DNA from: Thioalbus denitrificans
GTDB lineage: Bacteria; Pseudomonadota; Gammaproteobacteria; DSM-26407
Reading direction: 5' to 3'
NCBI RefSeq assembly: GCF_003337735.1
Contig: NZ_QPJY01000005.1
Span: 142,265 to 206,264 of the forward strand
Length of the DNA: 64,000 bases
Position 1 is the first letter of the stretch; the number at the start of each line of letters is the position of its first letter. The position numbers and the translations under genes were made by a program. The notes below the pieces were generated by a model. The model was not told the origin of the DNA, did no database searches, and saw only the letters and a program-made list of their open reading frames with translations. This document shows, one piece after another, positions 16,111-19,564 of this stretch.

Positions 16111-16995
16111 ATGAGAATCAGACATACGCTTATTGCATCCGCCGTTGCCCTGGCCCTGCTTCCCGCGTCGGGCGCATTTGCTGCGGATGATTCCGCGCTC
16201 GTATACGCAGGCAGCGTGGATGGTTATGTGGGCTACCGTTGGATTTCCAGCGATGACAGCGACGAGGTCGAGGACGATCACACGCCCACGTATGGCGCCG
16301 GCGCAGTGGTCAGCGTACCGCTGGGGCAGGCCCTGTCGGTCCAGTTCGACGCGCTGGGCGAGGCCAATGTCCTGGACAACGATTCCGATGACGATCCCTC
16401 GAGCATGGTGTCCGTCGGGGCGCACCTGAGCTACCGCAATGCCTCCACCATGCTGGTCGGCGCCTTTGCCGGCTACGGCATCGGCACCGTGACCGACAAC
16501 GATGGCCACTCCAAGGCCGCCTACCTGGGGCTCGAGGGACAGTACTACTTCGATCCCGCCACCCTCTATGGCCAGGTCGGATACGTCAAGGGCCCCGGGG
16601 ACGACGACGAGAGCGAGGGCTTCGACGACGGCGGCTGGTTCGGCCGTGTGGTGGGCCGTTACTTCATCTCCGATGACATCATGCTCGAAGGCGACGTGGC
16701 CTATGCCGACACCGACCAGTACGTTGACGGCGATGACGCGGGCGAGATCTGGGCGTGGGGCCTGAAGTACAAGCAGCGACTGGGGAAATCGCCCGTCTAT
16801 GGCGTCATCGCCTACCGCGGCGCCAACTATGACTCGACCACGGAGGGTGATGTGGCGACCGAGCAGGTTCTCATGCTGGGCGTCAGCTTCGCCTTCGGGG
16901 CGGACAGCCTGAAGCACAATGACCGCAGCGGCGCGACCCTGGACCTGCCCCATTTCCTCCATCGCGCCAACATGTACTCGCAGACGCTGGATTGA
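16111..16995 (+). CDS. Predicted outer-membrane beta-barrel protein
   Basis: 294 residues. A clear signal peptide (MRIRHTLIASAVALALLPAS, cleavage after AFA near residue 25) is followed by alternating amphipathic strands rich in Gly and Tyr (DGYVGYRWIS, YGQVGYVKG, GWFGRVVGRYF, AWGLKYKQRL, VLMLGVSFAFG). Acidic Asp/Glu loops occur throughout (SDDSDEVEDDHT, DDDESEGFDDG), unusual enough to suggest cation binding or salt adaptation. The last residues do not end in the usual aromatic, so the barrel end is near FAFG and a short tail follows. I do not recognise a named porin family. It stands alone, with an AT-rich regulated-looking promoter and a large hairpin downstream. Confidence 0.75.
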   Translation: MRIRHTLIASAVALALLPASGAFAADDSALVYAGSVDGYVGYRWISSDDSDEVEDDHTPTYGAGAVVSVPLGQALSVQFDALGEANVLDNDSDDDPSSMVSVGAHLSYRNASTMLVGAFAGYGIGTVTDNDGHSKAAYLGLEGQYYFDPATLYGQVGYVKGPGDDDESEGFDDGGWFGRVVGRYFISDDIMLEGDVAYADTDQYVDGDDAGEIWAWGLKYKQRLGKSPVYGVIAYRGANYDSTTEGDVATEQVLMLGVSFAFGADSLKHNDRSGATLDLPHFLHRANMYSQTLD

Positions 16996-17020
16996 TTCAC
17001 GGGTTGCCGAAGCCTGAAAA

Positions 17021-17066
17021 CCGGAAACGGAAGGGGCGGCCATGCGGCCGCCCCTTCCGTTTCCGG
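17021..17066. terminator. Large perfect hairpin after the barrel gene
   Basis: A perfect 21-bp inverted repeat (17021-17041 with 17046-17066) with the four-base loop ATGC, 26 bases after the stop. There is no T tract. It may terminate or stabilise the barrel mRNA and also insulates it from the convergent sRNA array. Confidence 0.7.
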
Positions 17067-17087
17067 GCGTGGTCCCCTCGATGAACC

Positions 17088-17160
17088 AAAAAAAAGCCCG
17101 CTGACTAGATGGGAGCGGGCTTCAATAGGGACTGCCAGATGGAGGATGACCCATAGGGTC
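17088..17160 (-). ncRNA. Candidate sRNA unit 3 of a tandem array
   Basis: On the minus strand a transcript from about 17160 would begin with the hairpin GACCC-TAT-GGGTC. It would then expose a C-rich single strand containing CCTCCATCTGG (shared core at 17135-17143) and end in an 8-bp terminator stem (AGCCCGCT/AGCGGGCT, 17095-17121) followed by eight T. Length about 73 nt. CCTCC resembles an anti-Shine-Dalgarno sequence, the pairing motif of several C-rich trans-acting sRNAs. No open reading frame is present. Confidence 0.7.
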
Positions 17161-17166
17161 AGGCAA

Positions 17167-17209
17167 ATCGTATTCCCAACAGCGGGCGCAATGCGTTGCG
17201 AATCGTCAA
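17167..17209 (-). promoter_or_regulatory. FNR-like promoter of sRNA unit 3
   Basis: TTGACGATTCGCAA (17196-17209, minus sense) matches TTGA-N6-TCAA with one mismatch. TACGAT (17167-17172) lies 23 bases further on as the -10. This is the weakest box of the three. Confidence 0.5.
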
Positions 17210-17216
17210 TCCGGGC

Positions 17217-17284
17217 AAAAAAATGCCCGCGCTGGGCGGGCAAGGCAAAAACTGCACCAGATGGAAAACTGACCGTGGAAATCG
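17217..17284 (-). ncRNA. Candidate sRNA unit 2 of a tandem array
   Basis: A minus-strand transcript starting near 17283-17284 and ending in a T7 tract (17217-17223) after a 7-bp stem (TGCCCGC/GCGGGCA, 17224-17242), about 68 nt. It contains the shared TCCATCTGG core (17257-17265) but with TTTT instead of CCT before it, and it lacks the clear 5' hairpin of units 1 and 3. It may therefore have diverged in target choice. No coding frame is seen. Confidence 0.68.
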
Positions 17285-17290
17285 ACGCCC

Positions 17291-17332
17291 ATGCTATGCC
17301 GTGCCGGGCGCTCCGCGCTTGACCTGCCTCAA
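17291..17332 (-). promoter_or_regulatory. FNR/NNR-like promoter of sRNA unit 2
   Basis: TTGAGGCAGGTCAA (17319-17332, minus sense) has perfect TTGA-N6-TCAA half sites. TAGCAT (17291-17296) follows after 22 bases as the -10, placing the box centre close to -42. Confidence 0.55.
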
Positions 17333-17363
17333 GTGGCGGGGTTGGCCGACGTCCGCCATGAAC

Positions 17364-17432
17364 AAAAAAAAGGCCCGCCGGGCGACGGGCCTACACGGAC
17401 TTCCCAGATGGAGGTTGGAGACGTGTGTCTCG
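17364..17432 (-). ncRNA. Candidate sRNA unit 1 of a tandem array
   Basis: A minus-strand transcript from about 17432. It has a 5' hairpin GAGAC-ACAC-GTCTC, then the single-stranded CCTCCATCTGG (shared core at 17404-17412), then a terminator with a 7-bp stem (AGGCCCG/CGGGCCT, 17371-17392) and eight T. Length about 69 nt. It has the same architecture as unit 3 and the strongest promoter of the array. It lies downstream of tRNA-Gly, but that tRNA has its own terminator, so independent transcription is expected. Confidence 0.73.
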
Positions 17433-17438
17433 GGTCCA

Positions 17439-17481
17439 AGGATAGGGGGAAACGGGCCCAACCCGTTTTGATTCAGATCAA
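17439..17481 (-). promoter_or_regulatory. FNR promoter of sRNA unit 1
   Basis: TTGATCTGAATCAA (17468-17481, minus sense) is a perfect FNR/ANR site, TTGAT-N4-ATCAA. TATCCT (17439-17444) lies 23 bases downstream as the -10. This is textbook class II spacing. Confidence 0.75.
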
Positions 17482-17543
17482 GAATATTAGAAATGTCTGA
17501 TGTATTCGGCGTGGTCCCGGCTGCAACCCCGCTACCTGAAAAC

Positions 17544-17568
17544 AAAAAAACCGGCCCGAGGGCCGGTT
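17544..17568 (-). terminator. Intrinsic terminator of tRNA-Gly
   Basis: On the minus strand AACCGGCCC pairs with GGGCCGGTT across a two-base loop and is followed by a run of T. It lies 36 bases after the tRNA 3' end and separates it from the sRNA array. Confidence 0.9.
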
Positions 17569-17604
17569 GATCGTAGGCGATCCGTCGGGACCGCCAGTGG
17601 TTAC

Positions 17605-17678
17605 TGGAGCGGGTGATGGGAATCGAACCCACGTTAGAAGCTTGGGAAGCTCCTGTTCTACCATTGAACTACACCCGC
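17605..17678 (-). tRNA. tRNA-Gly (CCC)
   Basis: A 74-nt cloverleaf on the minus strand: acceptor GCGGGTG/CACCCGC, D arm GTTCAATGGTAGAAC, anticodon stem GGAGC/GCTTC with loop TTCCCAA (anticodon CCC), T arm GTGGGTTCGATTCCCAT, and an encoded CCA. Confidence 0.96.
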
Positions 17679-17749
17679 GAAGGCGTCTTATTCTATGCGA
17701 ACCGGCGGGCAGGTCAATTCCCGGGGCGCGGGTTTGTTGCCGGCGGGTC

Positions 17750-19564
17750 TCAGGCCAGCTCTCCGTACAGCAGCTCCACCTCCTTGCGGTAGCGCTCCAG
17801 CACCTGCTGGCGCCTGGTTTTCAGGGTCGGGGTGAGCAGGCCGTTCTCCACCGTCCAGGCATCCAGCATGGGGACCACGCGCCGCACCTTGGCATAGCCG
17901 GGAAAATCGGCGAGCAGTTCGCGCATGTGCGTGATGAGCTGATTGCGCAGCCGGTTGTCCAGCAGGCTCGCCGGATCGAATGCGTCCAGCCCGAGCTGCC
18001 TGGCCAGCGTCACCCAGTGCTCGCCGTTGAGCACCACCAGGGCGCTCAGGAAGGGGCGTCCCTCGCCCAGTACCAGCACCTGGTCGAAGAGGGGATCCAG
18101 GGCGATGGCCGACTCCATGTCGCCGGGCGGCACCTTCTCTCCGTTGGAGAGCACCAGGATGTCCTTGATTCGCCCGGTGATGTAGAGGTGGCCGTGCTCG
18201 ATGCGGGCCTGATCGCCGGTATGCAGCCAGCCGTCGCTGTCGATGGTCTGGGTGGTGGCGGCATGGTTGTTCCAGTAGCCCTGCATCACGCCGGGTCCCC
18301 GGACCAGCAGTTCGTCGTTCTCACCGATTTTCACCTCCACGCCGCGCAGGGGCAGGCCGACGCTGGCGGGTTCGTTGTCCTCGAGGGTGTTCACGCTCAC
18401 CACCGGGCTGGTCTCGGTCAGGCCGTAACCCTGGAGTATGGGCAGCCCGAGCCCGATGAAGGTGCGGGCCACGGAGAAGGGGAGTGCGGCGCCGCCGCTC
18501 ACGGCGACCCGCAGGCGGCCGCCGAGGCGGGCCAGGACCTTGTCGGCCACCAGCCGCCGCAGCAGCGGCCACAGCAGCAGTTGCGGCGAGAGCCAGCGGC
18601 TGGCGCGCCCCTGTGCCGCCTGGAAGCGGCGCCAGCCCACCACCGCGGCGGCCCTGAACAGGATGCGGGCGAGGGGCTTCTTCTCCAGTTGATCCGCGAG
18701 GCGGGCATAGACGCGCTCGTAGATGCGCGGCACCGATATCAGCGCCGTGGGACGGATGGTCTGCAGATCCTCGGCCAGTTGCTGGACCGAGCGGGAGAAC
18801 GCCACCGTGGAGCCGGCCATCATCGGCAGGTAGTAGCCGCCGGTGCGCTCCAGGGTGTGGGACAGGGGCAGGAAGGAGAGGAAGGTGTCCTCGCGGTAGA
18901 CCGAGACCATGGTCAGGCTGGCATGGGCGATGGAGAGCATGTTGTGGTGGCTCAGCATCACCCCCTTCGGCCGGCCGGTGGTGCCCGAGGTGTAGACGAT
19001 GGAGGCCAGGGACTGGCTGCCGTGCTCGTCATGCCGCACTTCGTGCTCGCCGCGGGGGAGCCATTCATCCACGTGGATGACGCGGGGATCGTCGTCAGCG
19101 CCCCCCGCCTTGTGCTCCAGCACCAGCACCCGCCGCAGCGCGGGCAGGCTCTCGTCGGCCGAGCGCAGGCGGCGCCACTGGGTGTCATCCTGGATCAGGA
19201 GCAGCTTGGCGGCCGAGTCGTTGAGTATGTAGGCCGCGCTGTCGGGCCGGTCGTCGGTGTACAGCGGCACCACCACCAGCCCGAGTCCGAGGGCCGCCTG
19301 GTCGAATTCCACCCACTCGCGGCAGTTGCGCAGCACGATGGCGACCCGGTCTCCGGGCTTCAGCGCTTCCCGCGCCATGCCCGCCTGCCAGCGCGCCACC
19401 TGCCGGGCCACCTCGCTCCAGGTGGCGTCCACCCACAGGCGGTGGCGGCGGTCGAACTGGCGGTAGGCGACGCTGTCGGGCGTGCGGTGGATCCGTTCCC
19501 GGAACAGGCCATCCAGCGTGACGGCGGTCTCGACCGCGATGATGTCTTCATTCCACTCGTGCAT
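17750..19564 (-). CDS. Long-chain acyl-CoA synthetase (AMP-forming ligase)
   Basis: 604 residues of the ANL superfamily. The AMP-binding P-loop motif [19 protein letters not shown] sits near residue 190, followed by [11 protein letters not shown], the hinge region [25 protein letters not shown], and the C-terminal [10 protein letters not shown] lysine-containing segment. The architecture is that of eukaryote-like long-chain fatty-acid CoA ligases (FAA1/COG1022 type) rather than classical FadD. It is expected to activate fatty acids with ATP and CoA, at the inner face of the membrane. It is transcribed alone, divergent from thiS with a gap of 86 bases. Confidence 0.93.

Follow-up and report, generated by a model that had tools for sequence, protein, structure and literature searches.

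Three tandem units behind a tRNA gene

Behind the tRNA-Gly(CCC) gene of Thioalbus denitrificans, the minus strand carries three short units arranged head to tail (positions 17481-17088 of the window, by which we mean the whole 64 kb stretch of DNA analysed). On the other side, the array is bordered by a convergent ORF of the outer-membrane type that ends at 16995. What do these units represent, and what might control them? The first-pass annotation had described them as homologous small RNAs (sRNAs), each with an FNR-like box, a -10 hexamer, a core and an intrinsic terminator, and every one of these elements was found where it had been placed (Table 1). The boxes score 10, 8 and 7 out of 10 against TTGAT-N4-ATCAA and precede the -10 hexamers by 23, 22 and 23 bases, as claimed. 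The units had been put at about 70 bases with T7-T8 terminators; the predicted RNAs are 68, 67 and 73 nt long, end in T8, T7 and T8, and have TCCATCTGG in common.

Table 1. Features of the tandem array and candidate target sites of the core (window positions, or contig:position).
Feature	Position	Strand	Sequence or parts	Remarks
tRNA-Gly (CCC)	17605..17678	-		upstream of the sRNA units
tRNA-Gly own terminator	17568-17549	-
Unit 1 FNR-like box	17468..17481	-	TTGATCTGAATCAA	10/10 to TTGAT-N4-ATCAA
Unit 1 -10-like hexamer	17439..17444	-	TATCCT	23 nt after box
Unit 1 predicted sRNA	17364..17431	-	~68 nt	family model 54.1 bits (training member); fold z -2.4
Unit 1 5' hairpin		-	GAGAC-ACAC-GTCTC
Unit 1 core	17414-17397	-	CCTCCATCTGGGAAGTCC
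Unit 1 terminator	17392-17371	-	stem + T8
Unit 2 FNR-like box	17319..17332	-	TTGAGGCAGGTCAA	8/10; perfect TTGA-N6-TCAA
Unit 2 -10-like hexamer	17291..17296	-	TAGCAT	22 nt after box
Unit 2 predicted sRNA	17217..17283	-	~67 nt	family model just 14.2 bits, E 0.2 over the window
Unit 2 core		-	TTTTCCATCTGGTGCAGT	divergent
Unit 2 terminator	17242-17224	-	stem + T7
Unit 3 FNR-like box	17196..17209	-	TTGACGATTCGCAA	7/10; one mismatch to TTGA-N6-TCAA
Unit 3 -10-like hexamer	17167..17172	-	TACGAT	23 nt after box
Unit 3 predicted sRNA	17088..17160	-	~73 nt	family model 69.5 bits (training member); fold z -3.8
Unit 3 5' hairpin		-	GACCC-TAT-GGGTC
Unit 3 core	17145-17129	-	CCTCCATCTGGCAGTCC
Unit 3 terminator	17122-17094	-	stem + T8
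Multihaem cytochrome lipoprotein	C1:415748		CCAGATGGAGG	site 7 nt before ATG; ACTGC further upstream
DsrE-family periplasmic protein	C2:718917			core-complement site
Secreted protein	C18:6400			core-complement site
One more ORF				core-complement site

Since the tRNA gene has a terminator of its own, the sRNA units need promoters of their own. Sigma70 promoters with a -35 element were considered and rejected, the sole sigma70-type consensus match in 16900-17800 being that of the tRNA gene. Protein-coding small ORFs were also rejected: by eye, no ORF preceded by a Shine-Dalgarno (SD) sequence is apparent, and unit 3 has only a 10-codon ATG frame. On both strands of the window there are only four strong terminators (a GC stem followed by T6), namely those of the tRNA gene and of units 1-3, and only the unit 1 box reaches 10/10.

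As the annotation had noted, a 5' hairpin and CCTCC are shared by units 1 and 3. Both are missing from unit 2, which shows only a weak 5' hairpin and has TTTTCC in place of CCTCC. We counted unit 2 in the family on the basis of its box, its spacing and position, the core octamer CCATCTGG and its terminator; it is the weak member of the array. The view of the C-rich core as an anti-SD sequence is supported, as CCUCC, which is complementary to the SD, lies within the core.

A dispersed sRNA family

The array had been taken for a three-copy arrangement. The array is real, but it belongs to a dispersed family of which the T. denitrificans genome has six copies or more. DNA searches with the unit 3 core produced matches elsewhere in this genome and in relatives, and a family covariance model was trained on six copies. 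At least three further copies are dispersed in the own genome (C4:224548, C1:213349 and C1:354079). The first two score 66.6 and 59.9 bits, between unit 3 (69.5 bits) and unit 1 (54.1 bits), and C1:354079, which was outside the training set, reaches 47.9 bits (E 5.7e-8).

At the level of the order, the search comprised two genomes, the own one and that of a relative of the same genus (G001). The covariance-model search of relatives, as proposed in the annotation, did find two copies in G001, at C186 and C378, but of the array itself only unit 3 is there. The C378 copy is the orthologue of unit 3, and the C186 copy is considered orthologous to C1:354079 since both have the same neighbouring isochorismatase-like ORF (named from sequence). 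The expected conservation in a relative thus extends to unit 3 and its box, but unit 2 does not adjoin it, the sequence just upstream being different, and no copy of unit 1 turned up in G001. As G001 keeps unit 3 only, near a contig end of an 87% complete draft, conservation of the triple array is unsupported. No other strong family member was detected in 369 sampled genomes of the class, where matches below ~35 bits are mostly ordinary terminators and, in a minority, other CCTCC double hairpins. Nothing was found flanking 57 FACL-homologue loci in related bacteria.

The repeated geometry had been judged hard to explain by chance. This holds: rare box scores occur at equal spacing before a -10 hexamer, core and terminator, and the anatomy recurs elsewhere. 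To judge from sequence, its independent recurrence in the genome and in the relative is the strongest evidence, and we consider it nearly certain that this previously undescribed sRNA family is real. A mobile repeat was rejected as an explanation, as hairpin, terminator, promoter and neighbourhood vary from copy to copy, and only the core and the geometry are shared.

Conserved structure and core

Seven good copies were used to analyze covariation. In their alignment 99% of the cells are paired and compensatory changes affect 13 of the 14 pairs (four of five in the 5' hairpin). The covariation score is 0.959, compared with 0.271 after shuffling and 0.146 at best after sliding, although it flatters the structure, since the alignment was guided to it by hand, with loops trimmed and N padding. 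The stems can also be read directly across the copies (GAGAC/GTCTC, GACCC/GGGTC, AGACC/GGTCT, GACTC/GAGTC and GCAC/GTGC). Five copies have the same linker between the hairpins, CCTCCATCTGGCAGTCC, and two more have almost the same one. In all seven copies whose promoter can be recognised, the hairpin starts 6-7 nt past the -10 hexamer; a gap this constant speaks for the promoter and also for a transcript that begins with the hairpin or slightly ahead of it.

In the predicted folds the core is partly paired (mean unpaired probability 0.43-0.66), a point against the mechanism proposed below. This only partly unpaired seed, terminators of U7 or more and an encoded Hfq (106 bits) are together the features of an Hfq-dependent sRNA.

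FNR-like boxes and candidate regulators

An FNR-like box lies 22-23 nt before the -10 hexamer, i.e. at the class-II position, in seven of the eight copies, one of these boxes being degenerate. Boxes were scored out of 10 against TTGAT-N4-ATCAA with the 14-mers of 0.8 Mb of the genome as a background, in which the frequency is 5e-6 for a score of 10, 2.5e-4 for ≥8 and 2.0e-3 for ≥7. Added to the 10, 8 and 7 of units 1-3 are scores of 8 for C1:354079 and 7 for each of the two G001 copies. The annotation had called the RNAs FNR-box-driven. FNR-like boxes do occupy the class-II position, but the box is degenerate in C4:224548 (TTGCGGATTGTCAT, score 6), and C1:213349 has none there. The unit 3 box is identical in G001, though the spacer to the -10 hexamer has diverged. 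Assuming that transcription starts at the hairpin or up to 2 nt before it, the centre of the unit 1 box falls at about -41.5 to -43.5, which, as far as sequence can tell, is the FNR class-II arrangement. A canonical FNR is encoded in the genome (CxxCx5C cluster motif, 281 bits versus a cutoff of 228). The sequence features of an FNR-activated sRNA, a box near -41.5 of its own promoter and an encoded FNR, are both found, and control of the family by an FNR-type regulator seems quite likely.

Alternatively, the boxes of the same sRNA family might be read by another Crp/FNR-family regulator, such as a NO-responsive one, and the signal would then be nitrosative or electron-acceptor status. The genome encodes ~16 Crp/Fnr-type regulators, several of them FNR-like with altered cysteines, and with boxes as degenerate as those seen in several copies (TTGCG-N4-RTCAA), another of these proteins could be the activator. 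The paralogue boxes also share a TTGCG/TTGAC-N4-RTCAA sub-consensus, unlike TTGAT-N4-ATCAA, and a second box is present 24 bp upstream both at C1:354079 and in its G001 orthologue. However, unit 1 matches the FNR consensus perfectly and the genome does encode FNR; on balance, we regard this alternative as rather unlikely.

Separately, a palindromic FNR-like site, ATGATAATTATCAA (9/10), is located at 524-537 of the window. Elsewhere in the genome (C4:5098-5138, minus strand), a short terminator-ended stretch with TATCTCCTGTC stands behind TTGATCCAGGTCAA, which matches the FNR consensus at 9/10; this is possibly another FNR-linked sRNA.

Relationship to known sRNAs

At gathering thresholds, Rfam models identified only tRNAs. 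Permissive matches (RF02278, anti-hemB, rnk_pseudo and RyhB) were rejected as weak and carried mostly by terminators, and none of the FNR-controlled sRNA families of Rfam gave a match, even with E values up to 5 allowed. With RF02278, the array units score 22.9 and 22.4 bits versus a gathering threshold of 50, and the terminator carries most of that. The best RF02278 score in the whole genome, 33.9 bits, belongs to a different locus (C1:708190).

Judged by sequence features, the closest architecture is that of the betaproteobacterial double-hairpin sRNAs (RF02278, Bordetella S17). Our family answers to their description as short double-hairpin RNAs with an SD-complementary C-rich stretch and several copies per genome: members of the RF02278 group (Burkholderia ncS03/05/27/62 and Bordetella S17) are 57-92 nt long, with two hairpins, a U-run terminator and a C-rich SD complement, and have 3-5 homologous copies per genome. 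The differences are the core, CCUCCAUCUGGCAGUCC here versus CUCCUCCAUCCUCCUUUGGUGG in the RF02278-type relatives found in this work, and the FNR-like boxes in the promoters of the array family. Moreover, T. denitrificans has a separate RF02278-like double-hairpin sRNA, CTCCTCCATCCTCCTTTGGTGG (C1:708190-708247, plus strand), with a sigma70-like promoter (TTGACT-N17-GATAAT). Its orthologue is at G001 C202:3736, and both are below the Rfam threshold (33.9 bits and, in G001, 34.7 bits). The Burkholderia RNAs are multicopy, carry complements of ribosome-binding sites (RBSs) and attenuate growth when overexpressed (PMC5688073), and Bordetella S17 represses its targets via RBS-complementary sites (PMC11722255); for this group as a whole, an RBS-blocking action has been either shown or proposed.

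Other CCTCC double-hairpin RNAs were observed as well. Another gammaproteobacterium (G302) has tandem pairs of them at C107:2413/2693 and C286:6145/6298, so that tandem duplication of such RNAs recurs. Two genomes of another genus (G087 and G210) have several each, some scoring 42-44 bits to RF02278. The RF02278 model seems too narrow for Gammaproteobacteria. In addition, a conserved CCATCCTCC element with a terminator lies directly behind an ORF at C6:134114-134175 (plus strand) and at G001 C485:6732; it is possibly a 3'UTR-derived anti-SD RNA.

The FnrS RNAs of E. coli and of the gonococcus (the latter also called AniS) are known as single genes. Like them, the present RNAs are small, of the Hfq type and preceded by a class-II FNR site near -41.5. 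They differ in having another core and probably other targets, and in forming a multicopy family. Gonococcal FnrS has a 5' stem-loop, an unstructured linker and a terminator behind a class-II FNR site (PMC3032703), the same hairpin/linker/terminator layout as in the array family. The Neisseria sibling sRNAs NmsR and NgncR_162/163 are also reported to be closely related to each other and to act on metabolism genes (PMC5362039, PMC9973317), but they form a pair, not a dispersed family. The most fitting description of the units is that of a new sRNA family working like both the RF02278 and the FnrS RNAs, that is, as RF02278-type anti-SD RNAs under an FNR-type promoter.

Candidate targets

The target background covered ~1.26 Mb (~31% of the genome), in stretches partly chosen because matches lay there. 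In four ORFs the extended core complements a site 7-8 nt before the ATG, at the SD position (Table 1). The multihaem cytochrome lipoprotein is the best candidate target, and G001 has the complementary site as well. Unit 2, which was not used to find this site, is predicted to bind it still more strongly (-26.1 kcal/mol) and places it at the top of 391 well-supported start regions and of all 1190. The same energy is reached by 328 of 5000 shuffled unit 2 tails, so the tail adds only modest evidence beyond the shared CCATCTGG.

Compared with cores shuffled in their 3' part, the real core pairs modestly better with start regions: its top three are matched by 6 of 150 shuffles, and its top-10 energies by 10 of 150. 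Of the 20 best partners, 10 are envelope proteins and 4 are secreted c-type cytochromes or Tat proteins (2 of 100 shuffles in each case), both leanings being tested post hoc, after the list had been seen. Given such tests and stretches chosen around matches, the target statistics are leads and suggestive only. Among the best partners are proteins that, by their motifs, resemble NapB and the NiFe-hydrogenase small subunit. NapB is 97% identical in G001, and its whole leader is nearly identical, which makes the conservation of the leader uninformative. For the hydrogenase small subunit, G001 homologues are just 45-51% identical, and no matching leader is seen in the limited G001 stretches covered; the DsrE-like candidate has no homologue in G001. 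Three genes from a single NiFe-hydrogenase-like cluster (C1:164756, 168565 and 172442, minus strand) are also among the best predicted partners of the core.

Sequestration of the SD by the sRNAs is fairly likely. It might, however, serve no specific regulon: the RNAs could be general translation dampeners or growth-slowing RNAs acting on many SDs, like the 'toxic' RF02278 RNAs. The complementarity of CCUCC to the SD, the growth attenuation reported for overexpressed RF02278 RNAs (PMC5688073) and the slight advantage in target energies that the real core has over shuffled ones would fit this, but the seventeen nearly invariant nucleotides, far beyond an SD complement, argue for specific pairing, as does the conserved site in the cytochrome leader, and we find general dampening improbable. 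It is more improbable still that the core, instead of pairing with mRNA, serves as a protein-binding site or soaks up another sRNA as a sponge. Sponges, too, are typically multicopy with an invariant, single-stranded core, and the genome holds an RF02278-type sRNA with a related sequence; however, that RNA is C-rich like the core, so pairing between the two is not expected, and a CsrA sponge was ruled out since the loops lack its GGA signature. That the units are tRNA-operon terminator leftovers or decaying promoter repeats, not separately transcribed, would suit their place just behind a tRNA gene but is scarcely credible in view of the compensatory changes, the independent dispersed copies and the box conserved between species.

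Proposed mechanism and its meaning

The family, its structure, the geometry of its boxes and the genes for FNR and Hfq are read from the sequence itself. The best explanation for them, and in our judgement a reasonably probable one, is that trans-acting sRNAs of the Hfq type (~67-74 nt), driven by a Crp/FNR-family regulator, sequester SD regions. Transcription, oxygen control, base-pairing and repression are what we infer. Every unit would be a separate transcription unit. FNR itself at unit 1, and FNR or another family member at the others, would bind at about -41.5 and activate a promoter that has no -35 element. Transcription would run from the 5' hairpin, or just before it, to the intrinsic terminator. 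In the RNA, the linker between the hairpins would expose the conserved CCUCCAUCUGGCAGUCC, which together with Hfq could pair with SD regions (GGAGG and the upstream AGAU...) and block translation initiation at low oxygen. The targets would lean to envelope and redox proteins, above all the multihaem cytochrome lipoprotein.

More tentatively, the FNR-driven array and its siblings may constitute a dedicated low-oxygen post-transcriptional regulon. Its conserved 17-nt anti-SD core, modified in individual copies such as unit 2, might tune extracytoplasmic electron-transfer proteins (the multihaem cytochrome, Nap, hydrogenase and the DsrE-like protein) as a translation-level incoherent FNR loop; we consider this extension doubtful.

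The family would join two themes so far known separately, multicopy double-hairpin anti-SD sRNAs and sRNAs under FNR class-II control. Double-hairpin anti-SD sRNAs, described from Betaproteobacteria, have sub-threshold relatives across Gammaproteobacteria, with promoters and cores of their own, which current Rfam models miss. If the proposed mechanism is true, an environmental gammaproteobacterium would possess a multi-gene RNA switch acting on the respiratory proteins of its envelope.
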